Source: Lentinula raphanica
Lineage: Eukaryota > Basidiomycota > Agaricomycetes > Agaricales > Omphalotaceae
DNA: 64,000 bases
Direction: 5' to 3'
Assembly (NCBI GenBank): GCA_027919835.1
Contig: JANVFP010000014.1
Location: 558,001 to 622,000 of the forward strand
A program made the translations under genes and the position numbers. Under the pieces are notes generated by a model that worked only from the letters and a program-made list of their open reading frames with translations, searched no databases and was not told the origin of the DNA. Every line of letters begins with the position of its first letter. The stretch's first letter is position 1. Shown here piece by piece: positions 10,186 through 41,427 of this stretch.

Positions 10186-10189
10186 GGAC

Positions 10190-18000: not shown

Positions 18001-18476
18001 TAGTACTAGAGAATGATGAAGCTGAATCTACTGCTGTTAAAGGTGACCGACAGATTTTCTATTTCAGAATTAACGCCATGATGCTCACACCAGACTCTAT
18101 CTATCTGGCAGGGTGTAGAGCTGCTCGTCTTCGAGTTATTTTCCGTCTTCCTACGATGGTTCATGATGGTGGTGCCCTAGTAAAGGCTCCTGCTAACTGG
18201 CCTAAAGAACATTTGGTGTACGTTACTTGGTATTCACGTTTCAAATCTTTTCCCGATACAGCTACTGGTATGTACAAAGTAGAGCCTGCTATTGGTTCCA
18301 ACGGTGTGCCCCAAGGAGCCATCATCCCCCTTTCTGATATCAGACAGAACTGCATGCTAGTACCAAGTAGAACATCCTGGGACAAACACTGGGATTCGGA
18401 CAATATCTTGGACAAGTGTTCTTCATTTTTCGTTAACAACTTACAGACAAAGTACGCCTACCAGACTATATATTGA
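15092..18476 (+). pseudogene. Plavaka (CACTA superfamily) transposase with a frameshift
   Basis: The chosen start (15092) opens with a C2H2 zinc finger, CPVCNKYFSRPQDRTAH, followed by a long acidic region. Introns at about 15890-15949 and 16255-16308 lead into the transposase core. The core reads IPRGGTVAPVILATDKTQL, then AYPVYLTIGNIPKELRRKPG (16408), CPKCQRKAGDL and FPLTDIHKCIAPDVLHQLYQG (16918). After DFFPQ (about 17487) the frame stops at 17531. The family-like continuation SRQEKVASFDFYQSWAF lies one frame over and runs open to 18476. One extra base in the AAATAAAT run at about 17488-17494 therefore breaks the gene, so this copy is probably inactive without correction. The element's terminal repeats were not located. 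Confidence 0.85.
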
Positions 18477-18992
18477 ATGCCTAATACTACTACTACTATT
18501 TTCACTCGTTCAAACAATTTCTTGCGGTAAAGATATATGCAGTATGTATTCTCGATTGTTCTTTGAAGCCGATGGAGTATAAGGATGGTTGAAGCCCCTA
18601 AAGTTTTGGCGTGAGAGTCTATCAACCTCTTGCCTCCCTACTACTACTACTACTTTACTAGTTCTTCACCAGTCTCATACAGCGAGTCGGATCTACTTCC
18701 ACGTTACCCAAACACCAGTTATCTGCTCTACTCCACGCCTTTAAACTGCTCCTCTTGGACTTTTTAAACAACTTGCCAGTGGCTTACTCGAGTCGGGGCT
18801 CCGTTATCGTCAACAAACAGGAGTTTACAATACTTATAAGATCACAAACACCTGGTAATTTCTCTTCATTTGAAGCTACTCTCACCAGCTGACAGTCTCT
18901 CTCTGTTGAAGGAGGATTTCGCGCCGCAAACTACTCTTTCTTCGTCTGCCTTCACCACAACTTACACGGGTATCACAGCTAGCTCTTAGGAT
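18477..18992. other. 3' flank of the Plavaka unit with ACT microsatellites
   Basis: Two runs of the trinucleotide ACT occur (about 18485-18499 and 18638-18653), separated by ~150 bases of unique sequence. CACTA-type elements often have repeats inside their ends, but no matching inverted copy was found left of 12 kb, so the element boundary remains open. Confidence 0.4.
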
Positions 18993-20128
18993 ATGGACAC
19001 CCCTCCTATCTCTACGCTTCGCCGCTCGACTAGGCAAAGAGGGTCCTCCAGACGTGTTTTGATGAACGTCGGTGGCCTCATGGAGAAAGAGGCAGCGGTC
19101 AAATATGTATACCTTACGCTTTTGATTCATGGACATCGGGCCTCTAGTGGGACAGCAGAGGGTTATTTGGGCTCCGGAGAAGGAGCCAGTAGTGAATCTT
19201 CGGTTCCAAGTGAAGGAGAACGTATAAGCATTGGAAGCAAAGGTGGTCGCAATATTGATATAAGCGAACTAGGGAAAGTCTTGGATGGGCATGCCATGGA
19301 GCAGTGAGTTCATTGATTTGCGCTCATTACTCTCCTCTTACGACTACCGTTGAACCATAGCCGATCTCCTCAGGACTTGATACTATCTCAAAGCTCATGC
19401 AGAACCCCTTTATCGATTGCAACGGTGTCAAGGTTTACTTCCCCAACTTCTCACAATATCTTTGAACGACTTCGATGGGCGAGGTCGCTTACAGGGTCAT
19501 CTTGGGTTGATTCTACATTGAGGTCCCAAAAAGACCCCACGTCTTGCCTAAGGGGATCGATCTCCCTAAGGAGATGAAAACATCATGATCGGTATTCTCT
19601 TCCAGCATCCCGACTCGTCTACAGCCTGCCGCGCACCTCACCCCTACAAGTTCCCTGTCCACGGAACCTTCGCATTCAGCAGAAGATCATTGCCCGCACG
19701 AACGAAACGAGCATTCCTTGAAACCACGAAATGCAATCTCAGCATCATGTATCCCTCTTCTGGATAGCTTACGGAGATGACAGACAGATTGTTCTGTAAC
19801 ATTTCAGTGCATTCTCTCCGAACCTTCCCTCACTCGGACTATCACTCGAAGTTGTGTCTCTCCTATTGATTCTATCCGTCCCATCATCTCGATGGAAACG
19901 TGCTCGGGTGTTTCTTCTTCTGCTAGCAGTGCGAAGTATGGTCTACGTCCCACCCATGTCCGACATTCCCGACATTCTGGAGATATACGCCGGTGGTAGA
20001 TGAGCATTACGCTTCCGAGCCAGCATAGAGGTCAATCTTCTTCAGGCTCTGGAAGGTATCATTCTCTTTCTTTCTTCACCTTCTGTGTCATTTCCTTCCT
20101 CCTCCTCATCGATCTCTCTTCCTCATCG
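18993..20128 (+). CDS. Unrecognised gene interrupted by the KDZ element
   Basis: An ATG at 18993 opens 104 codons beginning MDTPPISTLRRSTRQRGS and ending before an intron-like GT at 19304. Further plausible pieces follow: SKLMQNPFIDCNGVKVYFPN (about 19390) and EVPKRPHVLPKGIDLP (about 19520). The frames break several times, so decay is likely. The reading frames run up to the left target duplication of the KDZ element (20129), and protein-like frames resume beyond 36269. I infer the element inserted into this locus. No domain was recognised. Confidence 0.35.
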
Positions 20129-20136
20129 GATTTATC
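20129..20136. repeat. Left target-site duplication of the KDZ element
   Basis: GATTTATC lies directly outside the left terminal inverted repeat and recurs exactly at 36261-36268 outside the right one. Eight base pairs is the duplication length expected for KDZ/Zisupton-type transposons. Confidence 0.8.
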
Positions 20137-20227
20137 CATTCCAGGCTACCAATACCCAGTATCATACTAGATAGGACAGGACTTGCAAATCCCCTATCTA
20201 ATATGTCCAAAATCCCCGGGATTTCCC
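20137..20227 (+). repeat. Left terminal inverted repeat of the KDZ element
   Basis: It pairs with 36171-36260. The inner ~65 bases are nearly identical in sequence and spacing, ending in AAAATCCCCGGGATTTCCC, itself containing the palindrome AAATCCCCGGGATTT. The outer part keeps AGGC and ACCA but has drifted. Confidence 0.8.
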
Positions 20228-20472
20228 TTACTCTGGGATGTCCCCTTACTCTGGGATGTCCCCTTACTCTGGGATGTCCCTACTCTGGGATGTCCCTACT
20301 CTGGGATGTCCCTACTCTGGGATGTCCCCTACTCTGGGTGTCCCCTACTCTGGGATGTCCCTTACTTGGGGATGTCCCTACTCTGGGATGTCCCCTTACT
20401 CGGAGATGTCCCTTCTCTGGGATGTCCCTTAGTACTCTGGGATGTCACTTAGTACTCTGGGATGTCCCCTTA
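20222..20472 (+). repeat. Left subterminal array of GGGATGTCCC units
   Basis: About fifteen tandem units of the form CTCTGGGATGTCCC, with a period of 15-18 bases. GGGATGTCCC is a near-palindrome and its reverse complement GGGACATCCC forms the right array. Such clustered subterminal words are the usual layout of transposase-binding sites; that function is inferred. The last units shade into GTACTCTGGGATGTCACTTA. Confidence 0.9.
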
Positions 20473-20581
20473 CTATATGATATATTCTTACTGTAAAATA
20501 TATCTGAACTCTTCGTGCTCACTGTTCTCATATGTTCCTGTCAATTTTTTTGGAAAAATAGTTAAATAGTTATATCTCTTA

Positions 20582-23500
20582 TTATTCATCATCTACAAAA
20601 TTATCTACTTGATCTATCCCTTCCTCTAATGCATCTAAACGTTCAACTAATCCAATATCAAGGTCATCGTCATCGAAATCACTGAACTCATCTTCTGTTT
20701 CAACATACTCCTTGTCTTCCTCTTTTTCCTCACAGATATCCACTTTCTCTTCTGCCAACTCCCTTTCTATTTCATCTAACTCCAACGCTGATGGTCCCCA
20801 GTCAGAAATGTCTTGCAGCAGAGGAATAGGTTGCAGAGCCCTCCTCCATATAACACATAGACGAATCAAATCGCGCTTTCGCTGTTCAAGCTGATACATC
20901 AAATCTATCGGTGATCATTACTATCAGTGCTTTATGAGAGATAACACACATACCTGGATGAGTCGTAGCCTCAATACAATCATTAACCACACTCCATTCT
21001 TCATGAAACCATGATCGCAAAGCAAAACATTCATACTCGAGCCTCTTCATCTCCTCATCACACCTGTCCCGAAGTAAGATACCTTTAATACCAGAACGAA
21101 CGTCTTCATCCGTTAACCACGCCGGTGGGTTTTCATGGTCCGCTGTATCATCGAGTCCAACATCTTGCCAAATAACATCATCTACGTCAAGGTTGAACAG
21201 CTCTTTCATAGGTATCTGTTGCGGAACAAGAGCATTTTGTGGGGCTCTTCTCAAGTCGACGAGCTCCTTCATCTTCTTGCAGAGGTTGTTGTACTGACGG
21301 GCAAGTGACTGAATCCCAGGATCTCGCCGTTTAACAGCATCCTCAGTATGAGTGCGAACTTTTCGATCTGATTTTCTTTCAGAGAGTTTGTCAATCCACA
21401 ATCACCAAACACACACCATTGTATTGCTGACGTCTGAATGAGCGCTCAATTCGGTCGCGCTCGAACTTCCTGGAAGTAAGCCGATTCCGCAAACGAATCT
21501 TCAATGCATGTGCATTCATTCGTAGGCCAACAAAGGGGCTGGTCACCAAGTGCCGATACTGGGACCGTCCTGCTACACCTAGTGTCTGCTCCTGTCGTAA
21601 CAACCGGGCTTGGAGGGAGGAAAGTTTTTCACGTAAATCCGGAAGCTTTTCTTCAGCTTCAGCAACTTCATACACCTCTGAGTCAACATTTGTGACGGTA
21701 TCTTCTAGAGCAGAAATTCAATCCCGAAGAGTATCTCGAGCCTTTCGAAGGCGAATTGCCTCCTCTATTGCACTTCTTCCTGCAGTCTTGGATTGTCCTG
21801 TAGTTCATTAGTCTGGAACGAAAGATCGAGTCATAATACTCACTGGGTAGAGGCTTTGTTTGCAACAACACCTGTTCCTTCCACTGTTCACGAAGGTACT
21901 GAGCATCTCTACCTGAGTTGATGACCTCCATATCAGCTTCCCGGTGTTTCGCTTGTGTGATTCGCCATTTTCGTGCCAGCCAGTCTCCCAATCCAACCAG
22001 ACTCACGCAGTCTGCATATTGAACTTGTGCATCAAGAGTGTACAGCCGGGTATAATGCTATCAACTCAAAGTTAACAATTTGTGAAGAACAAGTTGAATT
22101 CAAGGCTCACCCCACAAACTCGAAGATAAGCGATTAGCTTACTGATGGAATGCCAAAACCTTTCACATCCTTCACCATCCGACAAGCCAAAGCCCTTGCA
22201 TTTACGTGGGTGATAGACACATTGGCATGGCCAACCATGTCCATAAGCGTGAAAAACTGATATGGCGAATGTCATCCTATCCAAGTATTGATCAAGAAAT
22301 CCCCACTTCACACAGCTACGATGGATCGAGCATCCTATGTCATACAATAAACCAACTGTGAACGTGGACGGAAGACTTTTGAAAAGTTGGTCTATTAGAG
22401 CAAAAGCATAGTGCTGACGTTCACCAGGTGAGGTCATATTCACAATCCACAGAACCCGATCATGGCGACAAAGCATGGCCATGAGAGCTGTGGAGTCAAA
22501 GAACTGGGTGCTAGCTTTTTCCCTGGAGCCATCAGCAGCTGTGAAGCTCTGTTCACAAGCATCCAGGACCGAGTTTGGGACTTTGAGAGATGTCTCATAT
22601 CCATCCTCCCTAACCTCCCTTGCAGCTGGTTCCTTAGCTTTCATTGGAGGACGTGCCCTGGCCACAATGTCTTCCCATCTTTTCACCTCGGCTTCAGGAA
22701 GGAATACTGTCTTCGGATGTTGGCGAGGAGGATCTTTGTATGGACCTTTATTATGCTTTTGCGTAAAGCATGCATCGATACACACAATAGCATTGAAACT
22801 ATGACCACATGCACATTTCAGTTCAAAAGGGAGTCATTGATGATGATAAACACATACTCTGATTTTCTTTGGGTTTCACCGCCAAAGCAAAGCGGACAGC
22901 GGGCCCGAAGGTATTCCGTAGGTCGAGACAAGTGCGTTGGCGCTTCATCACGAGCGTGAAAAGGCCTCTTCGCAACCTGACTGACATCACTCTCTCGGTC
23001 AGAGTCATCTTGTCCAGCCCCATCTTCTGTCTCCAGTTCCTCATCTCTCTCACAGTCCGCCTCGTCGAATTGCAGAACATTTTCCTTGCTATTATAGTCC
23101 CGAGCAGTCGACAGTACAGAATCAACGAATTCGACAGTCAAGTTCTGCAATGAGTTGTACCATTGAAGAGCATTCCCGAATCGTCTTCGGAGTGGATCCT
23201 GCAACGAACGCCTTGAGAATACTCACTAAGTAATAACAGAACACCCTTACCTTGCCCTGAAGTTGGTACCCTTGAGAATAAAGAAAATCATTGATCGTAT
23301 CAACCCAGGCAGTGTTGTTAGGTGCAATTCTCAGGAAAAGTCGAGTAACGAAGTCCAGTACACGGATATCGACTGCTAAAGTGGGGTGCATCGGGGCACA
23401 AGGAAAAAATCCTTGTTCTACAAGTTGCACAGCAGCAGGTTGACATGCACAAATGGAGAGCTCGATCCTTTCGAGTTCTGCGGAATTTTGTAAGATTATA

Positions 23501-24045
23501 TAGTGAGCCAATGAAAGGTCAGAAAACGTACTACTGAAGCGGACTATTACAACCGGAAGACTGCGTGGAACGTTCATACATGTACAAGCCTTCTCTACCC
23601 TGTTTACTTCATGTCTGAGATTACTCGTTTGGCGTAACAAGCCCATGTAAGGGCGTATCAAGCGAGGAAGGACCTCTGTCTGCCACCGATGAGTTTGCAC
23701 TAGCCGTTTGTGCTGATGGGTCGACATGACCGGAACTTTGATTGACAAATCCACCTCGGGCTCGACATTCACGGGACCAAATTCATCTGTGTCTGGACAA
23801 GAGTCATCCGTCTCTGGCAATGCGATACTCGGGCGTTCAAGCAAACCAACTTGACCTAGAGGACGAGCTAGACGCGGGCGTTGAATGAATTTCTCGCCAT
23901 TGGCAAGGTAAAGGGCAGGTTGACGAGTTAAATTCCGACGACGGGAAGGAGACGGTGAGGAAACGGGGAGAAGGGCGTAATCATTCTTTGTCGGTGAACT
24001 TGATGGATTTCGTTTCCTATCTTGGCGGATTCTAGGTCGAGACAT
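20582..24045 (-). CDS. KDZ transposase (CxC type)
   Basis: The gene reads leftwards in about eight exons. The chosen start is the ATG at 24045 (MSRPRIRQDRKRN); an alternative lies at 24087. The N-terminal third has the CxC-type cysteine cluster: CTCMNV, CACQPAAVQLV and FFPCAP, followed by VLDFVTRLFL and INDFLYSQGYQLQ. The catalytic RNase H-like core has its acidic residues in CIDACFTQK (Asp near 22778), LLYDIGC (Asp near 22341) and DGEGCERFWHSIS (Glu near 22164). Zinc-binding-type residues lie in HGWPCQCVYHPRKC. The C-terminal exons are charged and coiled-coil-like, ending in a Glu/Asp-rich tail and TAA at 20582. All three expected catalytic acids are present. The enzyme should excise and insert the surrounding element. 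Its orientation is opposite to both cargo genes, with a ~2.2-kb repeat-rich spacer between. Confidence 0.9.
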
Positions 24046-24786
24046 ATTTTCAGTGGGTATATCGCGAACTTGTCTCAATATCCTCACCCTATATACGTTT
24101 TTTGGCAGCTCCCTCCCGTTGAAAACGAGGAGGCCTCATGTTCGATCATAGAGTCACTCAGCCCTGAGTGCTCATGTCTACGCATTACGACGTTTAGAGG
24201 CGACTTGTGATTTATCGCTCAACATTTACACTAGTGATCATCAATGGAAACACAGCAGATCCGAAAGGTATCGCGTCAACTATCTAACTTTGACAGAGTG
24301 AAGTTTGTCGGACGCAGAGCACGCCAACCTCCGCCACCTGGTTATAACCGCAATGGATGGCGGTTGATCAATATAGGACTCGACTCGACTCGAAGTGAAG
24401 GTCCTGGTTGTCTGGTCAACCGAGAAACATAGAAGCAACACAAAGGAAACATACTCGGTGTGATTCCTTTAAAAATCTCAATGGTGGAGTACTCCGTCTT
24501 GACGAAGAGATTTCAGAGCTAATATGATGCTGAAAAGGTCCTACTTAGTGCTGTGTCATTGCTCGACAGATTAAAAAACATACCGAAAATAACGGTCCAG
24601 GCCCAGATAACACACGAGGTAATAAAAAGTGAGCACTGGCCAGAGGGGTACGTTGTCGAGCTTGTTCGCTATGACTAGAGAACAAGCTACCATTTCAGTA
24701 ACGCTGAAACTCAGGCGGTTGAGGATGAACGTGGCGAACAGCTGGCCAGAAACAGAGATTCACTAACGACGAACACAAGAGTGTTC

Positions 24787-25100
24787 ATCGTCGAATGGCA
24801 GTGGTAGAAACTCGTGGAGAGGATAACAGGTAGCGTGAACTAGGCCTCACGCTGTTGAGGTCGTTGAGATGAGGGATATGGAAAGTTCGAGTTCGCGCTT
24901 CGTTTCGAGGGCTACAGGACGTGGAGATAATGATGTTACTTCGCGTCGAATGGCAGCGGTAGAAACTCGTGAAGATGATAACAGGTAGCGTGAACAAGGC
25001 CTCACGCTGTTGAGGTCGTTGAGATGAGGGATATGGATAGTTCGAGTTCGCGCTTCGTTTCAAGGGCTACAAGACGTGGAGATAACGATGTTACTTCGCG
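24787..25100. repeat. 160-base tandem duplication
   Basis: Two adjacent copies start CGTCGAATGGCAG (24791 and 24957) and end GATGTTACTTCG (24946 and 25098). They differ by about a dozen substitutions. Degenerate relatives of the sub-block around CGCTTCGTTTCGAGGGCT occur again at 25223 and 25310. Frames in the copies repeat the same peptide and look non-coding. Confidence 0.85.
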
Positions 25101-25807
25101 AGCTGCAGGAGATAAAGATCCGGGCACTCTGAAACCCCAGATTGTGCAGGGTTTGACAATTTTTCAGGGCCAGGTATAGACGAACATTGCAGACTTGGAA
25201 GGACGTGTAGAAGGAGCTGGCGATGGCGATTTCGCTTCGAGAGCGGGAGGAAATGAGAAGACTCCAACCCCTCTGTGGGGAAAGAACGCGCAAGGTTGCT
25301 GTGAGTGGCGGTTTTGCTTCGAGATCTGGTGGAAATGAATGTCTTGAGCTCTTTGGGGGTGCAGAAGCCGGAAGGAGATGGCAATTTCGATTGCTATTAG
25401 GTGCTGGAAACCGGAGAAAGTTATAGCTTATGGTTAACGCGAAATATTGCTATAATATATGGAGGTGTCGTACCTCGAGAACTCCAACATTCACAGCAGG
25501 TGTACGACTCCTCCAACGAGATACAGGAACCGGCGACGGAGGCGGCGAAAAACGAAGATCGTGTTCATATTGTCGTCGTGAGCGTCCTGGAGCATGACGA
25601 GGGGACTGGTAAAGAGTAGCGAAGGTTTAAACGAAGGGGTGATGGGGTATGGGGAAAGAGTAGCGAAGGTTTATAACGAAGGGGTGATGGGCCACTGGCG
25701 ACGACGACGGACAACGTCGGTGAAGAACATAGAGTGGAAGAATTTGATATACCGACGACGATCCTACTTCGTCGTCGTCAATAACAGTGAAGGGCACCTA
25801 TAGAGAT

Positions 25808-26043
25808 GGTGAAAGTAACGAGAGAAGAGAAATACTGATTACATAATACAAACATGAGAAAGATGAAGCCTGCCGAACTAGCAAAGTGTTGCTCATCGCC
25901 GAGATCATGAGTTTCGCCGAAAGCTGCCGAAGTCTCATGACTTTCGGCGATGAGCAACACTTTGCTAGTTCGGCAGGCTTCAACTTTCCCTCGTTCGCAT
26001 TACGTAAACATTTTTCCTCTTCTCTCGTTACTTTCACTATCGC
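25808..26043. repeat. 236-bp hairpin (inverted repeat)
   Basis: The inner arms are nearly perfect: 25873-25909 (AAGCCTGCCGAACTAGCAAA onward) pairs with 25944-25980. The outer parts, beginning GTGAAAGTAACGAGAGAAGA at 25808 and ending in its complement at 26036, pair more loosely. The loop is about 30 bases. It could be a miniature inverted-repeat insertion, a recombination product, or a structured RNA element in the cargo gene's 5' region. Confidence 0.85.
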
Positions 26044-26267
26044 TACCCTGGTAAGTTCAATACTTTCGACCCTCGCTCTATTCATCGCGTATCGTACTTC
26101 AACATTAGCGTAGACGGTTATTCAATAATTAATGAGACGTCTGAGACTCTGAGCAACCCTAAGTTAATGAATAAGAAAGGCCAAAGGCCAACAAGAAGGC
26201 AGAAATTGCTCGAGATATTGAAAAAGACGACGAGAGGCCATGTCCGTACGACGAGAACTCATTGCTC

Positions 26268-29200
26268 ATGATATCCCGTCATCTAGGTGGTAGCATCCTC
26301 GATACGATGGCCAGCAACGCAAGAGATGTGGAACGCAACGTTTTCATCCTAGATGAAGCGGAGGAGGAGGAGTTGGATTGGGGTGACGAAGATGATGAGG
26401 ATGAGGATTTAGCGGCTCGGGAAGAGGCAGAGCGTGCGCGACAGAAGGCGGAGAGTGTGTTATTGCGAGATCGGACGGAGCGGACGATGCTACAAGAAGT
26501 AGTATCTCGTTGGGAGGAACGACTCGATTCAAACCAACAGAACCCCCCAATCGCAACCGAAACCCCACAATCATTCCAACGGCGCAGGATTCGTCCCCTT
26601 CCAAGGCCTTCCCAATCTCCCGCACCTTCGCCATCGCCCCATCCCGCTCCTGTTCCACATCCTTCACCTTCAGAACGCTTGGGAGATTCATCTCTCGCAG
26701 CTCCTGAGGCTAAATTGCCACCTCCTGCTCTTCCTGCATATCTTCCGCCTTCAGAGGACTCGGGAGAGCTATCTCCTGCAGGTCCCGAAGCACAATCGAC
26801 ATCTCCCACTCTTACTGCAATTCCTGAAGCACAATCGACGCCTCCTACTTTTCCAGCACCAACTCCAGAGAACTCCGGAGATGTCGCTCGGGCTGCTCCC
26901 TCTCCTGCGCCTTCCGCACCTGCACCATCTTCAGAGGGCTCAGGAGATGTTACTCCTGCAGCTCCTGAAGCGAAGATGCCATCTCCTCCCACTCCTGTGC
27001 GTTCTCCTGCCCCTCCTCCGTCTTCAGAGGGCTCAGGAGATGTTACTCCTGCAGCTCCTGAAGCGAAGATGCCATCTCCTCCCACTCCTGTGCGTTCTCC
27101 CGGACCTCCTGCCCCTCCTACGTCTTCAGAGGGCTCAGGAGATGTTACTCCTGCAGCTCCTGAAGCGAAGATGCCATCTCCTCCCACTCCTGCACCAAGT
27201 GTGCGTTCTCCTGGACCTCCAGCCCCTCCTCCGTCTTCAGAGGGCTCCGAACATGTAATTCCTTCAGCCTCTGAAGCGAACATGGAATCTTCCGCCTCTC
27301 CTGCTCCTTCTCCGTCTTCAGAGGGCCCCGGAGATGCTTCTGAGGCGAAAATGCCATCTCTTCCCGCTCCTGGACCTCCTGCCCCTCTTCCAGCTCCTGA
27401 AGCGATGATCCAATCCTTCGCCCCTCCTGCCTCTCCTCCTTCATCTTCATCTACAGAGGGCACCGGAGGTGTAACTTCTAATGTCCCTGCACATCCTTCG
27501 TCTTCCGGGGCCGCGCAAGTATTATCTGCGCCGCTCAAACCGCCTCAGCACACTTTGCGAGTTTCACCTCCTCCTGACCGTCCGTTGTGGATTTTACCCC
27601 CTCCTACGACGAATCTATGGGAGCCGAATAGCAAATACTTTACACTAGTTGACGGCACTTGGTACGCTGACGAATCTTCATTATGCCCCGCGGGCTATGT
27701 ATACAGGGAGCGAGAAGGTGGATTCCTTCGTCACGACCGCGGCCCAACTTCTCCCCCTCTTCCTCCTACCACGTCGCGATCGTTGAGAGATTCAGATGTC
27801 ATCGTTATCGATGATGTCGAAGTTAATCCCGTAGTTGCTTCCGGGAGTGCCGATCATCCGATCGCAATCGATGTTGACATTGACGGGGGTGTTCCAATGG
27901 ATGTTGACCCCCCGCAAGTGTCATATTCGAAGAACGGCGATGGGAACAAAGGTGATGGAGACTACACGATGGCAGACCTTCCTTCTGGCCAAAGGTATGT
28001 CCCACAACACTTTACTGAGTTTCAGTCTTCATCTAACTCTGCTTTCACAGTGTCAGCAATGATAACGATAATGAGGATGATGAGGATGAGGATGAGGATG
28101 ATGAGGATGAGGATGAAGAGGATGAGGGGATTGCATTCGACATGACAGAGGAGCAGCACCAACTTGCTGAATGGATTAAAGATCATCACGTCCCGACTTG
28201 GGGGCCGGGCCCTTATCACATATACCATGTTCGCTGTAAGGTATGACCTTTCTTTCCATCTAGCCTTTTTTGCTCCGAGATTCACATTACTTCCTTCACT
28301 TAGAGGGGCTTTGAACGAACGACTGTCAAACGTATCAACGATGATATCGCTTCCGAAACAATTACTCTCAACCTGATTCGCGCCGCATTCATCTCGCAAT
28401 ATCCTGGCGGATTCTACCTTCAAGCTCGCAGCATGCTACCTGGGAATACACCTTTAGCATTGTATCTCAACCTTATCCCGAACCTCATCTATCCCCGTGG
28501 TAAAAGAATATCTGTAAGGCAGGGCACTCTGAACAATCCTCCGTCCACAATATCACAGTTGCGGGAGGAGTGGGATCAGCTCGGTCTTGGAATGCCCCTT
28601 CACACGTTGGTGGACGATCTTTCCGGTACCGAAGACTCTAAACGGAGGTTCTATGCTAATAGCTTTCGACCGGGGACTTGGGTGGTGCCTACGAAGGGTA
28701 GGTATCGGGGTGATACGGGATTGGTGGTGTTCGACGATTTCGATGAGATCGATGAAAGTACTGAGAGTTTGGTACTCTTCATACCCCGTCCGCAATTCAA
28801 CATAAACCACCCTCTCTATCCAAACAAGTTCTCTCACAAACCATCGATGCAGGCTCAGCCTGCATCAGAAGAGGTGCATGATCAGAATATTCCATCTGTG
28901 CGCGACTCTCGCTTCGAGTTACCAGACTTCGAAGAGGCAGGCTTCCCGCTCCCGGTTGAACCTCGAATTCCCAAAATGACTGTATCTGCCAAATATCGAA
29001 CCGGTAAACGACCTCTTCGAGTGACCTTCGGCTTCGACTTTCAAAAGAATGTAGAAGTTCAATGGAAATCCTTTTGTTCTCTTTATCCCAAACTCAAGGA
29101 CGTCAACTTTGAAGCTAGGTGCTCTCAACAATGCGAAACTCCTTTCACATGCCAACATCAACCAAACTATCTGAAGCGCTTCATATTTGATAAGGCGGTC

Positions 29201-31105
29201 ATACGCGGTGGCCTCGCACTTGTGCGACACCAGTTGTCTGATCTCGAGATGGCTGAGAGCATTGACGATCTAACGTTGAAGACGTTTACGCAGTACCCTG
29301 TTCCAGATATCCTCTTAGATCGTTTACCCCCTCCGCGTACATGGTCTTTCATCGCCAGTGAGACTGTCATCTATGTTCCAGAAGGCTCGGGACTTGAAGA
29401 GGTGAAGAAGGGAGAAGAGGGCATAATTCAAAGGGATGGGTTGTTGGAGTGTGAGGTTCTATTCTCACACAGTCAGGCCAACGTATCCATCTTAAAACGT
29501 CATCTGCGGAAAAACTGGAGGTTGGGTCAGATCGTGGAACTCTCCCCTCACAGTCCATCTGTTGTGCTGCGTACACGAGAGCAACTGGGCTACTCTGGAG
29601 TTTCAACACTCAACGAAGATCACTTCACACCGGCAAGTCAAACTGGACTAATCACCAAAGTCAAATTGGATCAACTTGATGTCTGGTTGACAGAAATCAA
29701 CTCTATCTGCACCGTTCATCCCAACTCTGTTCGAGAGGTGGCTGCATCCGCCGATACTTCTAGTCAGGAATCTGCGTTCCAACCAAAGCTAACCAACCTG
29801 GGTGCTACCCTTGCTCTCAAACCCAGTCTTTTGGCAATCCAGAAGATCGGAAACCTCGACCAGAAGGCGGATTTGGCAGACTTTGCGGATTCCTTCATAA
29901 CCCGTGAGGTCAACCGGTTCGACCTGCGACGGAGTGAACATGGCGTTCAAAGCCGTACCTCAACAGTTACTTCTGTTGATGAAATGATCTCCTTCCTGAA
30001 TCCTACCATTCGCTCTACGCTGCTAGGCTATATAGCAACTGAAGGCACGGTCCCTCGTACAGAGTACACCGGCCGAATACCTTGGTTGCATGTAGAAGTC
30101 AAACCAATCACTGGGGAACGGAAGGGATATCTGGCCAGAGTGTTCGATGTGAAATCTGATTGGAAGAATACCAAGAGCGGGCTTCTCGTACTCATTCGTT
30201 TCCAAAATCCATCAATAATAGGCAATCACGAAGAGTGGTATGATTATGATCAGCTGCGACGGGTAGACAACGGCGGGTTCATTCACGAATCTACGTTCAC
30301 CAAGCAAACCAGCTCATATTTCAACTTCCGAATGGGATACCTACCTCGGCACCTAGAAACTGAAGCTACTGCCATAAATCTTTCATCAACGCTCGATCGA
30401 GCAGATGGCAGTCGAACCCCGAAAGGTCATTGGGCAGATGTTGACTACAGCCTTCCTGCTTGGGATCCCAGCTCACATACACCCAACCCATATGCCTCAT
30501 CTTCTGCCTCTGCTTCTGCTCCTCCGCCGCCTAAGCATTGGATTTTGGATCCTCGTATCTGCCAAGGCCTTGCGGGAAGGGAGATATGGGTGAATGTTCG
30601 ATCTGAGAAGGATGCAGTCCGGGTTTCTTTGCACGTAGGGTCCAGTGGCGAAATTGTGATATCTGCTCAGGACGATCATGTAGGAGGCCGTAAGGTGAAC
30701 GTTGCGACACACGAAGTGAATCCCCAAGCAATACTTTCCAACCCTCGATGCAGTAAAGTCACGAAGGGTCATTCGGCTAGTGGGCTTTATATCATATGTG
30801 AAGGGGAACATACGGGAAAGCTTGTCCGACGGGCGAATTACTTTGCTCAAGAAAATCTCTGGGTGTTGCAGGTAATGCGCCCGGTGTTTCGCCCAGATCT
30901 GAGGAAGCAATTCTCAGTAGAGATTGATAGCAGTGACCCAGTGCTGAAGAGAATTCCAGGCAATGCACTCGCCATGGTTCATGAGTCACGATCAGATGCG
31001 GAAGCTGGGAACAAAGTGATGTGCATTGTGCGCAAAGCTGCAGGAGGAAATACCAATGGTTATGACATAGATGGGCATGGACGTATAATCAAGCAAGGAC
31101 GTTAG
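26268..31105 (+). CDS. Spt5-like NGN/KOW protein carried by the KDZ element
   Basis: Three exons can be joined: about 26268-27994, 28051-28239 and 28304-31105, giving a protein of roughly 1570 residues. The first ~570 residues start acidic (EEEELDWGDEDDEDEDL), then contain a Pro/Ser/Ala repeat region with units like SSEGSGDVTPAAPEAKMP. Exon 2 is an Asp/Glu run leading to GPYHIYHVRCK, which with RGFERTTVKRIND and QYPGGFYLQARS (about 28410) has the look of an Spt5 NGN domain. KOW-like motifs follow: GTWVVPTKGRYRGDTGLVV (28675), KPITGERKGYLARVFDV (about 30110) and GEHTGKLVRRANYF (about 30805). This is the Spt5 architecture: acidic N-terminus, NGN, several KOWs. Spt5 is a universal RNA polymerase elongation factor. 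In a transposon a paralogue could promote transcription of the element; that is inference. The start is uncertain (ATG at 26240 or 26268). Confidence 0.75.
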
Positions 31106-31428
31106 AAATATCATATTATTTTGTATTTTTTTTGGTAAGAACTTAATGTATATACTGATTGGAACCGACGCTCGTGCGCAAACACGTTAAACTATCATAA
31201 GTCTTCAGTACTGGTACTTGAGCATTACTGATGCCGTGCGCAAACACGATAAACTAGAATTTGCCATGCCGCTGATGCCGTGTGCAAAAACTTGAACTTA
31301 GTGGCGTTCGCTTAGTGCTTAGTGTTTTACGCGTTGCAACGTCGTCAGTGGTTTACTGAGGTGATTTCTCCAGCCTCTAATTTTCTTCGTGTCTGACTTT
31401 AACAGCCTTTAATTGTCTTAGAAGAAGA
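31106..31428. promoter_or_regulatory. Spacer with repeated GTGCGCAAACACG words
   Basis: Between the two cargo genes the word GTGCGCAAACACG-TAAACTA occurs at 31174 and 31235 and a degenerate copy GTGTGCAAAAACT at 31279. Repeated words just upstream of a gene suggest factor-binding sites for the second cargo gene; this is inferred. A T-rich stretch after 31105 may serve 3'-end formation of the Spt5-like gene. Confidence 0.4.
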
Positions 31429-34400
31429 ATGGCCCCTCGAACACGAGCAGCACAGGGAACCCGAAAAACCCGGTCCAATAATGTACCAGACACAGAACAA
31501 ACGTCGCTTTCCACCATAGTTCAGCCATCGAAACGTAATACGAGAACAGGTGACACAGTGGAGGGGGAGGGGAAGGGGAAGGGGAAAGGGAAGGGGAAAG
31601 GGAATGGAAGGGGAAAGGGCAGAGGACGAGGAGGGAAGGGAAACGGAAAGCAGAAAGCGGAAGAGGCCAGCGCAGATGAAATGGAAACAGTAAGCACAAT
31701 CCAAAACTCAAGTCAATCTGTGTCTAATTGCCAGTTTTAATATTAAGGACAAGAATAGTGAGGATGAAGGTCCACAAGTTGTGAAATCCCGAATGCGCCG
31801 ACTCAAAAACTCTGTTGCTGCTTCCACTGCTGCTCCTCTAGCGCCCTCTGACTCTCCGCCAGTTGCGAAACTCCGAACGCGTCCACTTACTTCTGCTGCT
31901 CTTCGATATTCTGACTCAGAAGTCGAAGACAGCGCGTCACGCCCTTCCTCGCAGGCGCTTCTGGGCTCAGGCAAGAGCATCGCCGTTGAAGAACCTACAT
32001 ACAGCACTGCTTTCCCAGTTCCATTGGTGACTCCCTATGACATCGAATTAGAGGCGTTCCGCATCCTTCAAGGTTTCATGGCCAACACGCACACCTATCC
32101 CTCAGCTGAACGTGCTATACAGGACATATTCGGTGATACGTATGATGCCAGGAAGTGGGAACCTTGGCTTTCACGTATCACGAGCATAGAGCCTGATGAT
32201 GAAGTATCCCTGGCGCTGGTCAGCAAAGAACTAGACACCGAAATCGCAGCCCTTGGCAAAGCAGCAAAGGATCAGCATAAACAGGATAGCGAGGAGTTGA
32301 AGGCTGCTGATGATAGAGGTGTTGAGAACGAGAGTCAGGGTGGACGTACAGCCGCAGACAATGACGCAGCAAGTAAACGGGGAGTTTTTCTTCCTGAAGA
32401 CAAAGACGTCGAGGACCTCTACAGTGACGCTATGCTTTGTGATCCAGACCAAGCCTGTCAGGTTCTGGCAAATTTTCGCGACTATCTTGAAGATGCGTTA
32501 ACAAAACACTGCAAGCGAGCCATCAATTTCAAAGAATTCAACATCTGGAATCTCGCAAACACTTACATTTCTGACGAATACGAACTTGCTCGCAGCACAG
32601 CGCTGATCGAATGGGGCGAGATCTTGGAAACGCATCTGGCTACAGCGAAAGATAACGACAACAATCATGACAACGGCAATGCCAACGACAACAACGACAA
32701 CAACAACAACAACGACAACAACGACAATGCGAATGCCAACGCCAACACCAACGACGCCAACACCAACGACGCCAACGCCAACGGCAACGACGACAACGGC
32801 AACGGCAACGGCAACGACGACAACGGCAATGTCAACGATGACAACGACAACGATGAGGACGACAACGATGAGGGTCAAACGGTTGACTCGTTGTTGTCGA
32901 ATTTTGTTGAGGAAGAGGAACTCGAAGAGGAAGCAGAAGAGGAAGAGGAAGCAGAAGAAGCTAGTCCTCGAAAGCGGCATGGCGGGGGTTTGACAAAGGA
33001 GATAAGAGAAGAGCTTGACAACTGGCACGCCAAGTATAAAGAAGGCATCAAGGATATCGCGAAGAAGGTCGGAGTCGACATGCACACTTGCTTCTCATAT
33101 CTTGACCAACAAATGAGTCGTCCCCGTGCTATCAATCGCTTCAATGCCTTCAAAGCACACTATGCTGTCCATGGTAGTGTGAAGAAAAACCCAAACAGTG
33201 AGTTTCTTTTGTGGAATCCTTTCTTCCATCTGATTGTTTTCTACAGAAGATTTATCCGAGTATAATGACTTTGTGCGAGCAGAATACTGGAGAACACTCA
33301 AGTCCCGTCTGCCTGACAATGAGCTGCAAGATCCTAAAGCCAGGAGCCGCGCTATGCAACCTGAAGTCGACTGGTACCGCGAGCAAGTTAACAACTATAT
33401 TGAGGTTTCAAGGGAATCTGGGAAAATCAAAGGAACGGTGAAAGCTATGATACGTCCGGTGTTGACATTGGTTAGTCTTCTCTTTGTTGTCAGCATTTGT
33501 TTCACTGAATCGATATAATAGGCGGAGAAACTTTACGAAACGTCGGGCTATCATCTTCTTGGATGGCTTATCAACTCCAAACGGGATGGCTTCGGACGTA
33601 GTACCAGTGCGTTTTTTGCTGGTGACTACATTGCGAAGCAGGCAAAGGAGCACTTTGCTTCCCAGATGGAGGCACAAATAGCGGACATGGAAGGTATATT
33701 TCAGGTAGTTGAGATGGACAACAAACAAGTCGACATCCGTCTAGCGAAACTTTATAGTTCGCTGCTCATAAAAGAGGGGCAATCACGCAAGGATTGGGAG
33801 CGACGCGTTATGCGTTTATTATTTAAGAATGACATTAGTGAGTACCTAGCTGGCTTGGATACAGCCACAACTGATATACCATTACCAGACGACTTTTTGA
33901 ATCGCGACGCCAAAATCAACATGAATGGGTTTCTCGATTCAGCCTGGAAACAACATATACGCATTCGAAATTGGCCGGAAGGTGTGCCCTTTCCAAAGCA
34001 CAAAGTCACAGAGCATAAGAAACTCTCAGTGAAAGAGTGCAGGGCCATCTACACCCCGCGAAAGGCACTCGTAGATCAAGAGTATCAGATTGCAACCAAT
34101 ACTGGTGGAAATAACACCCAGCCGATTCTGGGTATCCCTTATGAGTTTGAACATTGGACTGAAGGTTTGCTCCACTCACACAACTTGATGACAATGTTCT
34201 AATGATCGATTTCAGAAGAGATAGCTATGGATCTGGAAGACCAAGGAAGCATCCCCGTTGTGGTAGATGTGAATAACGAACCTGTTACCTTGGTCAGTGA
34301 TGTTACATCATGGAGAAAAGCTGTATATGGTCCAGATACAGTAGATGGTAACGCTGTGTCTGCTCCTGTGCCTACTCCTGTGCCTGTGCCTACTCCTGTG

Positions 34401-34979
34401 CCTGCGCCTACTCCTACTCCTGCGCCTACTCCTACTCCTGCGCCGACGCCTACTCCTGCACCTACTCCTGTGCCTACTCGTGCTCGTGCTCCTGCACCTG
34501 CTCGTGTGCCTACCCGTGCACCTCCTCATGCACCTTCTCGTGCATCTGCGGCTGCACCTTCTCGTGCATCTGCGGCTGCACCTTCTCGTGCACCTGCGGC
34601 TGCACCTTCTCGTGCACCTGCGGCTGCGCCTTCTCGTGCGCCTTCTCGTGCGCCTTCTCGTGCACCTGCGGCTGCGCCTACTCGTGCAGCTGCACCTACT
34701 CATGCGCCTACTCGTGCGCCTGCACCTACTCCAGTACTTATTTCAGATGAAGTACACAAGTATGCAGTGACAGCACCTCCTGCAGCTCCTGGTAGTAACC
34801 GTCCTTTGCCCCGTCCTTTGCCACGCATGAATGCTGTAGCAGGGCCTTCTAGACTGGAGCAGGATCACAAGCGTCGTCGTGAAGAAGATATAGTTCCCAG
34901 TAATAGGGAACTGAAGAGAGCAAAAGGGAAGGGTAGAGAAATAGTTCCTGTTATTGATTTGGAGAAATTCCATATCTAG
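31429..34979 (+). CDS. Large unknown cargo protein of the KDZ element
   Basis: The start ATG (31429) opens MAPRTRAAQGTRKTRSNN, then a Gly/Lys/Arg tract (31560-31660). An intron of about 70 bases (GTAAG at 31690) leads to DKNSEDEGPQVV. The main exon holds LEAFRILQGFMANTHTYPS and AINFKEFNIWNLANTYIS. An Asn/Asp/Ala tract (32650-32870) and a Glu-rich tract follow. After it come LDNWHAKYKEGIKDIAKKVG and RPRAINRFNAFKAHYAVHG, which is faintly HMG-box-like. Further exons contain YNDFVRAEYWRTLKSRLPD, YHLLGWLINSKRDGFGRS and WPEGVPFPKHKV. The C-terminus is a Pro/Thr/Ala/Arg tandem-repeat region (34350-34740) and a basic tail ending at TAG 34977. No known family is certain. Its place inside the element suggests a role in transposition or expression of the element. 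Confidence 0.7.
32650..32870 (+). repeat. AAC/GAC trinucleotide-type tract in coding sequence
   Basis: The DNA is an imperfect run of AACGAC and AACGCC words encoding Asn, Asp, Ala and Gly. Length variation by slippage would keep the frame. It lies inside the second cargo gene, between its N-terminal and HMG-like regions. Confidence 0.85.
34350..34740 (+). repeat. Coding minisatellite (Pro-Thr-Pro then Arg-Ala-Pro units)
   Basis: Units of 6-24 bases such as CCTACTCCTGTG and CCTTCTCGTGCACCTGCGGCTG are tandemly repeated and encode PTPVP then SRAPAAAP repeats. The repeated peptide is basic and proline-rich, probably disordered. Confidence 0.9.
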
Positions 34980-35049
34980 ATCATCTTAAGTACTATATAA
35001 GTAGTCCTTGAAATCATATTCAATAATATAATTTCTAGCATACCTCTTG

Positions 35050-36170
35050 AGGTGGAGGGACATCCCAGTAGTAAGGGATATCCCATATAGGGGACATCCC
35101 AGTAGGGACATCCCAGTAAGGGGACATCCCAGTAGGGACATCCCAGTAAGGGACAGCCCATAGACAGGGACATCCCAGTAGTAAGGGACATCCCAGTAGG
35201 GACATCCCAGTAAGGGACAGCCCATAGACAGGGACATCCCAGTAGTAAGGGACATCCCAGTAGTAAGGGACAGCCCTTAGACAGGGACATCCCAGTGGTA
35301 ATGGATATCCCATATAGGGGACATCCCAGTAGTAAGGGACATCCCAGTAAGGGACATCCCATATAGGGGACATCCCAGTAGTAAGGGACATCCCATATAG
35401 GGGACATCCCTTGTAGGAACATCCCAGTAGTAAGGGATATCCCATGTAGGGGACATCCCATGTATACTGTCAGTAGTCCTTGAAATCATAGTCAGTGATA
35501 CAATTTTCAACATGCTTTGGTAAATAAATAAAGACTATATTCACTGAAAGATTGGTGTATCCAATGTAAGAGGGACATCCCAGTGGGGACATCCCATGTA
35601 TAGGGACATCCCAGTTGAGGGACATCCCATGTAGGGTACATCCCAGGTGAGGGACATCCCATGTAGGGTACATCCCAGGTGAGGGACATCCCATGTATAG
35701 GGACATCCCATATAAGAGGGACAGCCCAGCTGAGGGACATCCCATGTAAGAGGGACATCCCAGCTGAGGAACATCCCATGTAAGAGGGACATCCCTGTTG
35801 AGGAACATCCCTGTTGAGGAACATCCCATGTAAGAGGGACATCCCTGCTGAGGAACATCCCATGTATAGGGACATCCCAAGTGGAACAGCCCAGCTGAGG
35901 AACATCCCTAGTGGTGAGGGACAGCCCAAGTGGGACAGCCCATGTTAAACAAAGAACATCCCAAGTGGGATAGCCCAGTCGAGGAACATCTCAAGTGGGA
36001 CAGCCCATGTGGGACAACCCAAGTAGGACAGCCCATCTACAGGGGATATCCCATATGGGCCGTTCCAGATGAGGGATATCCCATTGAGGACATCCCATTC
36101 AAAAAGGGACATCCCAATTCAGAAGGAACATCCTATAGGGACATCCCAGGTGGGAGGGAACATCCCATGA
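35050..36170 (-). repeat. Right subterminal array of GGGACATCCC units
   Basis: Dozens of units built on GGGACATCCCA with spacers of 5-15 bases fill about 1.1 kb. The reverse complement of the unit is the left array's GGGATGTCCC, so the arrays are inverted to each other. Two sub-arrays are separated by ~80 unique bases (35461-35570). Spacers come in families (GTAGTAAGG, CATATAGG, TGTAAGAGG), showing local unit amplification. Apparent long frames across it (repeats of GCPLLLGCP) are by-products of the repeat. Confidence 0.9.
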
Positions 36171-36260
36171 GGGAAATCCCGGGGATTTTCAGCATATTAG
36201 CTAGGGGATTTACGGGTCTTGTCCTATCTAATATGATACCTTTTGGTGGTTGCCTAAAGT
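36171..36260 (-). repeat. Right terminal inverted repeat of the KDZ element
   Basis: It pairs with 20137-20227. It begins inside with GGGAAATCCCCGGGATTTT-like sequence and ends CTATCTAATATGATACC plus a diverged tip ending AAAGT. It is immediately followed by the second GATTTATC. Confidence 0.8.
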
Positions 36261-36268
36261 GATTTATC
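36261..36268. repeat. Right target-site duplication of the KDZ element
   Basis: An exact GATTTATC, matching 20129-20136. Confidence 0.8.
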
Positions 36269-38268
36269 AGCAGCGACGGCGATAAGATCGGAATGCTTCG
36301 CAAGGTGGCTCAGACTCACACCCCTTCGTCGGAAGCAACATTCAAATCTCTGCCTCCTATCCCTTCCTAATTTACTACCGCTAGCGAAATGCCTGTCGCT
36401 TACAAGACTGTATTCGAACCTTGCACTAAGCCTACAACTCGGTACTCTACTGCAGAACTTTGTCCCAGTGAGCCTGGCCAATACCTAGTGAAGAAAGGCA
36501 CACCGGAAGGCGCCTTCAATACATCTTGTTAATCGCGTTCTCTACCTCCAGGCTCCTTCCGCGCTAGCCAGTGAAGCACCAAGTCAGCTTTTGTCCGTCG
36601 TCTCTTCCTCGGCCGCTTCCCTTCCTGCTCCCACATCTACAGCACCTCCCTGTAACCAAACGTACCGTCTCTTCTTCTTCGGTTTGTACTCTGCAGCGTC
36701 AGACCTCTCGAAGTTAGACTTGTCTCTCTACCCTGCCTACGGGGCTAAGTACAAGTGTACCGACTCCAACCAGTGTACGTTGGTCAGAAAGGGAACAAAG
36801 TTCCCGTCTTTTGTCATTGCCACCTACACCTCCGACTGAAGTCACCAGGGATGGCATTGACTAGGCGTACTCATCAAACCCGACATGCTGGGCACGGGTT
36901 CGACCAAAGCTCAATTGTGGCTGGATGTAATCGACGGTTGCCGGCATCCTCTGGTCTTTGGATATCACTGTACCCTCCAACCCAATGATGATCGAGTAGT
37001 GCCGGTTAAGGATGACCGCCCCCTGGTGTCAATCCACGAATCCCTCGAAATTCGAATTTTGGTACTCACAATCTTGTCTCCACCCTCAGCAAACTTCTGG
37101 TACAGGTTATCGACCGCCGGTGAGTACGTTTGATAGGATGATATCGAGATACATACCATCTAAATCATCACAGTAGCTTGCTTCGAAATGGTTTTGGGAA
37201 TGTTGCATGGCCTCAACCAGGGTCGCTCCTCCCACCTCAGAAAAACTAGCGACATACATGTTATCTGTTAACAACCACCTTCTGTACAGATTTCCAAACC
37301 CTTGTTCTCTGAACTCATCCGTCAACACCGTCAAACCTTTTGAAAATTCAAATTCGCCATTCTCAAGACAGCTCCTAGCTTTGTTACATTCGAGTCACGT
37401 CTTGATAATCATGACGAACTGTCTAGACGACGAAGAGATGCAGAACTATCATTATCTTGCGTAGTGGAAACTACCATTATCTCGAGTCCACTACGCATAC
37501 AGAGCGATAAGGTCTGGTAACCTTGTGGAAGACTGCCCGGATTCTCAAACCAAGAACGATTCCGACTCGCTCGACTCGCTTTCAGTGCCCTTCAGTGGTT
37601 TTGATCCTAATCCCAAGTCGACATTGGATTCAAGTCAGTACAACGTGATACGATATCTCATTCTGACGAACCTAACAACGCTGTTGTTTTTGTAGACGGT
37701 CAAACTCCTTTCAGCTTTACTGGTCTTTACACTCCTCTTGAACTACATTTGTCTTCATTATCATCAACGTCCAGCATATCGAATCGTTCCTCCTCTACGT
37801 TTATTTTCACACCGTCCAAGCGAACTTCGCAGACTTGACCATTTCCATTCATAACTCCCATTCCTTCTAATGCTCTGACCTCTTCATTCTGGTCGCAACC
37901 AAGCCCAGTCTCTGCTAATACTGCAAAACCTCCCGAAACGTGCAACACCGAGTGACACGGTCTGCTTCAGTCCTTTGTGTTTACCACATTAACGGTTCAC
38001 GGGCACCACGTTGACAGTCAAGAAGTTCACCACGTTATCATTCGTGTACATCACTCTCATCGGAATCACCCCTTTCTTCATTTACCCTAATGTTCACCTG
38101 CACGTTGGCAATATAAGCCTCCGGGGCTTGAATCGTCGGAGGCTAGAGAAAGGTTTTGTCCGGGCGTGGGGCGCGGATATCAGAGGAGCTGAAGCCAGAG
38201 AAAGGCTAGGTAAGCACCAGGAGGGCTCAGTTCGATCTGTATTCAACATTCTTCGCTTTTCTAGCTAT
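36269..38268 (+). other. Continuation of the interrupted locus, no recognised gene
   Basis: Protein-like plus-strand pieces include TYRLFFFGLYSAASDLSKLD (about 36660), LWLDVIDGCRHPLVFGYHC (about 36912) and CFEMVLGMLHGL (about 37172). They are in different frames with stops between, and no domain is recognised. They may be the downstream part of the gene at 18993-20128. A small minus-strand frame at 37727-37948 (LAETGLGCDQNEEVRALEGMG) has no known relatives that I recognise. A 14-base inverted repeat around CATTATC-TTGCGTAGTGG (37450-37490) is a minor hairpin. Confidence 0.3.
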
Positions 38269-38276
38269 CTTGAACC
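38269..38276. repeat. Candidate left target duplication of the fold-back element
   Basis: CTTGAACC occurs here and at 41428-41435, just outside the paired arms. The outermost ~6 bases of the arms do not pair well, so the exact boundary is uncertain by a few bases. Confidence 0.5.
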
Positions 38277-41200: not shown

Positions 41201-41427
41201 CGCGAAGTGCAGTACAGCTTCGCAAAGTAGATTTATTATAATATACCTATTAAATAATAAAAGAATTATTAAATATTATTAAATATACTAAATAGCCGAG
41301 CACCCCCCGGAGCCCTACTGGCCTACCCGGAAGGGTTTGTTGAGCTTCGAGAGCGAGTCCTGTTACTTCGCGAAGCTGTGGTGGAGACTTATCGGACTAC
41401 TTCGCGGAGTTTTTACAGCTTCAGCTG
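38277..41427. mobile_element. 3.15-kb fold-back (long inverted-repeat) element
   Basis: Almost the whole interval is one inverted repeat. The outer arms 38283-38600 and 41100-41421 are nearly identical in reverse complement, for example CTCCGGGGGGTGCTCGGC at 38394 against its complement at 41298. Inner landmarks such as GGGCGCTTATGGGCGCTTAT (39625) pair with 40319-40338. Weaker pairing continues to a centre near 39,980. The arms contain AT-rich minisatellite units around CAATGAAAAGTCTCGGAACA. The word CTTCGCGAAG or CTTTGCGAAG recurs near both ends. CTTGAACC flanks the element at 38269 and 41428, suggesting an 8-bp target duplication as in hAT-like elements. No transposase is encoded; small mirrored frames in both arms are not credible genes. 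Confidence 0.8.

Follow-up and report, generated by a model that had tools for sequence, protein, structure and literature searches.

The window analysed here is a stretch of 64,000 nucleotides from the genome of Lentinula raphanica (contig JANVFP010000014.1, termed C14 below, positions 558001-622000). It very probably holds a complete KDZ-superfamily DNA transposon that was inserted into a Plavaka transposon with a 7-bp target duplication, that carries selected genes including a homologue of Spt5, and whose copy in the window was moved in trans. The element occupies positions 20137-36261 (16,125 bp, 5'-CA...TG-3' ends, no strand assigned), and these limits are supported by an in-register terminal alignment, by 11 other copies and by empty paralogous sites. 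A KDZ transposase gene lies on its minus strand, and its plus strand carries an Spt5-like gene, referred to as NGN-KOW, and a second conserved gene, referred to as ORF3. The assembly comprises 49.06 Mb in 75 contigs, and all searches for copies within the genome refer to this one genome.

Termini of the transposon

The sequence GATTTATC was read at 20129-20136 and again at 36261-36268, on both sides of the element, as an earlier note on this DNA had reported. The same note had taken it for an exact 8-bp target duplication. The two ends were aligned to each other without gaps, and the match was 74/100 with the right end placed at 36261 and only 29/100 with the right end at 36260, for which reason the terminal G is assigned to the element. 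G36261 is thus best read as the last base of the element, and the duplication around the window copy as the 7-bp ATTTATC and not 8 bp (left copy at 20130-20136, right copy at 36262-36268, both unstranded and both taken from the sequence read and the family copies). The eighth matching base outside ATTTATC is a coincidence of about 1 in 4. The boundaries had been described as defined to the base, and this holds for the left end, while the right end was displaced by one base. In the corrected register, the inverted repeats of ~90 bp that had been noticed earlier are seen: an imperfect repeat of ~91 bp matches at 72/91 positions, compared with at most 43/91 in 300 shuffles of the right end. The left repeat, of the CATTCCAGGCTACC type, lies at 20137-20227 on the plus strand, and the right repeat, of the CACTTTAGGCAACC type, at 36171-36261 on the minus strand.

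When the genome was searched with the left end, 129 matches were obtained, many of them array units (see below) and not separate copies. Fifteen two-ended copies were sought and 12 were readable, the window included; C14:1086975, C42:363536 and C11:1371273-1384022 were left out. A perfect direct duplication was present in all 12 readable copies, with CA...TG ends throughout. Its length was 7 bp in six of them (the window, C33:128063, C28:415927, C24:191198, C3:2064606 and C28:451856) and 8 bp in the remaining six (C21:41993, C20:444544, C42:239942, C1:369797, C24:668678 and C32:509478). TG precedes the duplication in all 11 other two-ended copies, and the terminal G is thus inside the element there. 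The comparison with other copies, which had been suggested as a check, therefore returned the same left base and a right end one base further right than originally placed. In this way the ends of a Lentinula KDZ family that is present in multiple copies were fixed exactly, and duplications of 7 and of 8 bp are both made by this one family.

It could be argued that the KDZ element in the window is autonomous and active, with a genuine duplication of 8 bp and an end at 36260, given that GATTTATC is identical on both sides and that half of the readable copies do have 8-bp duplications. However, the terminal repeat is lost in that register, the terminal G lies inside the element in the 11 other copies, and the transposase frame is interrupted (see below). 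This explanation is highly improbable, and the 8-bp reading ending at 36260 is already largely refuted.

The transposase-side end was of the CATTCCAGGCTACC type wherever it was read (the window, C24, C28 and C36), and the opposite end, where read, was of the CACTTTAGGCAACC type. Seven copies of 2.0-2.4 kb, together with C21 (13.4 kb) and C42 (7.6 kb), carry the CACTTT type at both ends. These copies look like inverted double right ends, and presumably they moved in trans. As for the copies left out, a search of 1901 bp did not reveal the left end of the C14:1086975 element, no recognisable left end was found for the C42:363536 copy, and the flanks of C11:1371273-1384022 are inverse complements of each other, with no direct duplication. 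A further eight ends or regions (L100-L107) were read singly, their partners not being sought; six of the eight have a CA/TG end, L105 has a diverged end and L106 has none. The copy at C24:668678-699423 measures 30.7 kb.

Two individual copies deserve mention. The 2.3-kb copies at C42:363536-365994 and C3:2064566-2067024 have one right flank in common (aggatgctggtgtt), and the C42 copy is damaged at its left end. The copy at C11:1371273-1384022 (L040, L096 and L097) is 12.7 kb long, has right-type ends on both sides and no transposase match, and carries NGN-KOW at 98% and ORF3 at 94%.

Inside the terminal repeats lie two subterminal arrays, which were located by a search for GGGACATCCCA-like units with up to two mismatches allowed. 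The left array (20225-20474, minus strand) has 13 units of 16-18 bp, and the right array (35056-36160, plus strand, outer limit approximate) has 61; the two are inverted relative to each other, as had been described before. Neither the rest of the element nor the rest of the window contains the exact 9-base core of the GGGACATCCCA units, and matches with two mismatches are few outside the arrays (two in the rest of the element and eight outside it).

The insertion site

A query in which both flanks were joined through one target copy matched C45:122738-123145 and C26:772246-772653, in each case over the full 408 bp, ungapped and with three mismatches. An empty site had been proposed as a further check on the element, and both sites do rejoin at a single (G)ATTTATC, within this one genome. 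They are paralogs and not alleles, the empty target being repeated in the genome because the target itself is a transposon. With the ends, the target duplication and the transposase, these two paralogous empty sites bear out the earlier description of a full-length KDZ element.

The target is, judged by comparison with C45:116998-133509, a Plavaka-type element at 10184-45441 on the plus strand, within which the KDZ element and a second insertion (38277-41427) are placed. The segments 10184-11194, 36437-38276, 41428-43417 and 43418-45441, together with the 408 bp around the site, are 97.4-99.5% identical to the C45 copy; this comparison left out 11195-19959. Without its insertions the host element measures ~16.0 kb in the window, compared with 16.5 kb at C45. 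A match to the Plavaka family (PF18759) was found at 15974-17005, in a frame that has three stops. The second insertion, of 3.15 kb, is AT-rich (32-39% GC by 1-kb steps), is absent at C45, is bordered on both sides by CTTGAACC and has inverted ends.

The transposase

The transposase gene (20582-24045, minus strand) has several exons, at 24045-23251, 23198-22858, 22798-22111 and from 22057 onward, the borders after these being approximate. GT-AG joints support the first exons. A Pfam scan of the open reading frames (ORFs) of the element identified the KDZ transposase family (PF18758, E = 1.1e-57) and the cysteine cluster CxC1 (PF18802, E = 2.1e-8, above the cut-off), with CxC2 below the cut-off. 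The three catalytic acids that had been claimed for this protein were located as D codons at 22774-22776 and 22339-22341 and an E codon at either 22171-22173 or 22162-22164, within GEGCERFW, these being the acidic residues that we take to be catalytic. With a catalytic domain that has its acids, a CxC domain, and a short duplication with inverted ends, the element is best filed as KDZ; it is not placed as Kyakuja. The same scan, of nine ORFs, showed no tyrosine-recombinase domain, and a Starship giant transposon, of which a tyrosine-recombinase captain is the hallmark, was rejected.

An in-frame TGA (21718-21720, minus strand), absent from the earlier note, was found past the catalytic core, in a conserved segment. 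None of the 24 paralogous loci among L001-L035 that align over this codon has a stop at its position, one locus stopping three residues further on, and intact copies of the segment are present elsewhere in the genome. The window copy is probably not autonomous because of this TGA. The element had been called possibly active; with its transposase frame broken, this copy would at best be mobilised in trans. The family as a whole was probably active recently, since partial copies are 94-98% identical. The right-half copies at C11, C22, C32, C28:193508 and C33:150176 are 95-98% identical in exon 4 of ORF3.

The Spt5-like NGN-KOW gene

The earlier note had pointed to two large plus-strand genes, and both could be modelled. 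The first, NGN-KOW (26307-31105, plus strand), has exons at 26307-27994, 28051-28240 and 28304-31105 and encodes 1559 residues. This three-exon model agrees in outline with annotated Lentinula proteins; 16 such homologues were found, the nine best being 63-92% identical, and UniRef names three of the 16 'Chromatin elongation factor' (the names being at least that long). The protein searches gave relatives in Lentinula only (16, 10 and 8 proteins, with 10 for ORF3), which is weak evidence on distribution owing to the length and word limits of the search.

A search of the genome with the Pfam NGN model gave the host Spt5 at C42:206727 (7.5e-23) and nine weaker matches. One of these, C14:1236529, sits between the transposase and the ORF3 of another family locus, and two more, C48:20546 and C2:410337, are within 5 kb of ORF3 matches. 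Three NGN paralogs were recognised in Pfam as Spt5-NGN (1.5e-5, 0.0035 and 0.0057), one of them also as KOW1_SPT5 (3.1e-5). The window protein was then related to these paralogs by an iterative search in a small database made of the ORFs of the collected loci and shuffled decoys, in which it matched paralog L113 at 3.8e-7 and the host Spt5 at only 0.026. A profile built from the round-0 matches, with the host Spt5 excluded, found the host Spt5 at 1.8e-7, the best decoy being at 2.9. The round-2 value was disregarded since Spt5 was itself in that profile.

A second profile, A3, was prepared from the window protein and nine paralogs, with the host Spt5 again left out, and matched Spt5 structures in the PDB at 2.9e-17. 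The 15 best rows, with E no higher than 0.0051, were Spt5 (14) or RDM3 (one, E = 0.0019), and the 20 rows up to E = 1 comprised 15 Spt5, the one RDM3 and four ADP-ribosyltransferases (E 0.51-0.56). Among the ten members of A3, Pfam recognised NGN in five, KOW in four, KOW1_SPT5 in three and KOW5_SPT5 in three. The profile matches indicate that the carried gene is homologous to Spt5, with predicted NGN and KOW domains. Like the Spt5/NusG family (host Spt5 at C42:206727; PDB 5xon), it has NGN, then KOW1, then more KOW-like segments; unlike that family, it has a long Pro-rich N-terminal part, is strongly diverged and is present in many copies in repeats.

The study by Iyer et al. 2014, said to be the founding study of KDZ, lay outside the literature searched, in which no transposon-encoded Spt5-like gene was found. 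Neither 'KOW' nor 'Spt5' occurs in PMC12062965 or PMC12730594, and PMC13289920 yielded one passage, which has no bearing on the question. No earlier report of an Spt5-like gene on a transposon was thus found; KDZ elements of large size that carry accessory genes have been described before.

ORF3 and its linkage to the transposase

The second plus-strand gene, ORF3 (31429-34979), was modelled with five exons (31429-31689, 31748-33197, 33247-33470, 33522-34164 and 34216-34979) and encodes 1113 residues. In Pfam nothing matched it better than E = 0.19, and a search of the PDB with its family profile was negative up to E = 1. Its association with the transposase was examined at 30 family loci, which were kept from 91 transposase matches by retaining the close family, merging fragments and dropping distant matches of 24-38%. 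At 23 of the 30 loci an ORF3 match lay 5' of the transposase at a distance of up to 32 kb, and at 21 of these the two genes were divergent, as they are in the window. The pairs C3/C60, C10/C64 and C1:170731/C25:120270 look like near-identical duplicates, so that fewer than 30 of these loci are independent. Random placement gave a mean of 0.50 loci with an ORF3 neighbour and a maximum of 5 in 2000 trials. Contigs C17, C48 and C70 were not open to placement in this first control; with C17 (its length being a minimum) and C48 added, the mean was 0.58 and the maximum again 5 in 2000 trials.

Selection, gene order and probable exchange between elements

Pairwise ratios of nonsynonymous to synonymous substitution (dN/dS), which carry no significance test, were 0.12-0.27 for NGN-KOW over up to 932 codons (eight of nine comparisons, the ninth being saturated; two of the eight values are the same segment in overlapping loci). 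For the transposase core they were 0.07-0.11 (three of 11 comparisons, eight being saturated). For exon 2 of ORF3, values were obtained at three of the four loci tried: 0.16 with each of two distant copies, and 0.37 with the copy at C11, which is near-identical. Given the low dN/dS between copies, the products of the accessory genes have most probably been maintained as functional proteins. The element had been called cargo-carrying; with ORF3 at 23 of 30 loci and signs of purifying selection, NGN-KOW and ORF3 look instead like selected parts of the family, and the apparent cargo like a selected gene set.

The order of NGN-KOW and ORF3 was kept in all five elements checked, the gap between their conserved parts being 585-678 bp in four and 3110 bp in the fifth. 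In another strain, consecutively numbered records on one 7137-bp contig are homologues of NGN-KOW and ORF3, and in L. guzmanii records of these two types are two numbers apart, likewise on a 7137-bp contig. The NGN-KOW gene has probably also moved between elements, because the copies at C6 and in the window are closer to each other (dS 0.46, ~80% protein identity, opposite orientation at C6) than are the transposases of the same two elements (dS saturated, 69% identity).

Several observations weigh against the reading of the element as the carrier of a selected Spt5 homologue. The window protein alone reached no Pfam model, and hence gave no NGN or KOW match itself, and its best Spt5 match in the PDB was at E = 2.1. 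A narrow-family profile, A1, matched no Spt5 structure, its sole match being to a low-complexity part of NELF-A (E 5.1). Within the top structure hit of A3, the NGN stretch is weak, at 11 bits, compared with 50 bits for the KOW stretch. The homology to Spt5 accordingly runs through intermediate paralogs. The AlphaFold models were unusable, the alignments being too shallow, with a mean predicted local distance difference test (pLDDT) score of 28.8 for NGN-KOW and 36.2 for ORF3. NGN-KOW is present at 11 of the 30 family transposase loci, a low share, and in varying orientation. Of the 23 more distant NGN-KOW loci, 21 are over 32 kb from any KDZ or Plavaka match among the matches listed.

Some of these points would suit an explanation in which NGN-KOW, and perhaps ORF3 too, is neutral freight, that is, a captured host gene that hitchhikes on the element. 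The low share of loci and the varying orientation of NGN-KOW speak for it, as does the C6 gene, which is much nearer to that of the window than the transposases are. Neutral freight is nevertheless hard to square with the dN/dS of NGN-KOW, with ORF3 at most family loci, with the short gap between NGN-KOW and ORF3 in four of five elements or with their neighbouring records in another strain and in L. guzmanii, and we regard it as unlikely.

One further interpretation takes NGN-KOW for a transposon of its own, nested within the KDZ element. The distance of the distant loci from the listed KDZ and Plavaka matches would be expected in this case, and 17 of those 23 loci (L052-L068) were compared with each other: 15 have long stretches, including their flanks, in common with others of the set, L052 shares less and L068 nothing. 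A 245-bp palindrome (25801-26045) also lies just upstream of NGN-KOW. However, no inverted-repeat pair was found around the gene within 24150-31500 (395 bp being searched on the right), and the order of NGN-KOW and ORF3 is kept in the five elements checked. Nesting is accordingly less likely still than neutral freight, and NGN-KOW and ORF3 are treated below as selected parts of the KDZ family. As an observation on the distant genes themselves, most of those at L052-L068 lie in dispersed repeats, with a similarity of up to 99.95% across 4 kb.

Comparison with known KDZ elements

The comparisons that follow are limited to the available parts of the sources cited. Mushroom genomes commonly contain KDZ elements, which have been termed understudied (PMC8290104). 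KDZ1-KDZ3 of Cryptococcus have a CxC1 transposase, terminal repeats of 139-241 bp, duplications of 4-8 bp (KDZ2 and KDZ3) and a size of ~9-11 kb (PMC12810828). The Lentinula element resembles them in its KDZ transposase with CxC1, its long terminal repeats and its short duplications. It differs from them in its size (16.1 kb, and 30.7 kb for the copy at C24:668678-699423), its two further genes, one of them Spt5-like, its CA...TG ends and its subterminal arrays.

Kyakuja of Laccaria bicolor, likewise in an Agaricomycete host, has a 7-bp duplication and 5'-CA..TG-3' termini, and two families were reported without terminal inverted repeats and with TET/JBP (PMC12730594). The window copy shares the 7-bp duplication and the CA..TG ends; among the 12 readable copies, all have CA..TG, with the duplication at 7 bp in six and 8 bp in six. 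Unlike Kyakuja as described there, the Lentinula element has an inverted repeat of ~91 bp, duplications of either 7 or 8 bp and no internal TET/JBP match. None of the 28 genome matches to PF12851 lies between its ends, and the nearest is in the host Plavaka element, which has a sub-threshold TET/JBP match at 10660-10965.

Larger KDZ elements are on record: those of Ectocarpus reach 30.3 kb, an active one in Chlamydomonas measures 31.7 kb (PMC12477816), and a size of 16 kb is unexceptional for KDZ. Those giant elements are like the present one in their large size, nested insertions and extra genes, and in a transposase that is often pseudogenised, the element then being moved in trans (PMC12477816). 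They belong to a different lineage, and no Spt5-like gene is mentioned for them in the available part of that source (PMC12477816).

A proposed model for transposition and for the Spt5-like protein

In the model proposed, the subterminal GGGACATCCCA arrays would draw the KDZ transposase to both ends of the element, which the transposase would excise at CA/TG and reinsert with a stagger of 7 or 8 bp. The mirror-image arrays, of 13 and 61 units, and the CA...TG ends fit such a gathering of the ends, as do active KDZ elements elsewhere (PMC12810828, available part). The window copy itself would have been moved in trans, since its own transposase frame is interrupted. ORF3 could be a partner that binds DNA or the transposase, which is a speculative assignment.

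The Spt5-like protein would take the place of host Spt5 on RNA polymerase II and, once bound to the polymerase, would aid the reading of element genes through silenced chromatin. This role is suggested by analogy with the TET/JBP enzymes carried by fungal KDZ and Plavaka elements, and it is put forward tentatively, as possible rather than probable. Bacterial RfaH and plant SPT5L/KTF1 are specialised elongation-factor paralogs that act on particular DNA, and as a working analogy the Spt5-like protein may resemble RfaH in manner, or SPT5L/KTF1 with the opposite sign. No fungal-transposon case of specialised paralogs of this type was found in the literature searched.

The transposon may thus bring its own transcription helper. 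A wider and somewhat more doubtful proposal is that the family encodes an Spt5-class factor that would reprogram RNA polymerase II on the element's own genes against silencing. Such a factor would be a eukaryotic equivalent of RfaH, and next to the TET/JBP demethylases it would give fungal transposons another way to protect their own transcription; its gene would be swapped between transposon families. A relative of Spt5 kept by a transposon would tie the survival of transposons to the only family of transcription factors that all life shares. For comparison, the TET/JBP enzymes of fungal KDZ and Plavaka elements are thought to aid escape from methylation-based silencing (PMC12730594, available part).

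The opposite action on the polymerase can also be considered, with the Spt5-like protein serving as a trap, dominant-negative or repressor of the host polymerase against silencing transcription. Plant SPT5L/KTF1 works in RNA-directed methylation, of which this would be a reversed version, and RDM3 ('RNA-directed DNA methylation 3') is indeed among the structure matches of A3. The TET/JBP enzymes of other fungal transposons, thought to counter silencing, could be cited in its favour too (PMC12730594, available part). However, the RDM3 match is far weaker than those to Spt5, and the function is one proposed from sequence alone; a trap is about as improbable as neutral freight, and the replacement of host Spt5 on element genes is the role that we prefer.

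Other repeats

In addition to the palindrome upstream of NGN-KOW, the interval between the transposase and NGN-KOW contains a 155-bp tandem duplication at 24789-25100. Outside the element, a tandem array at 47138-50289 consists of ~790-bp units that are roughly 81-92% alike, and a 147-bp tandem repeat at 55793-56236 has units that are 98% alike.

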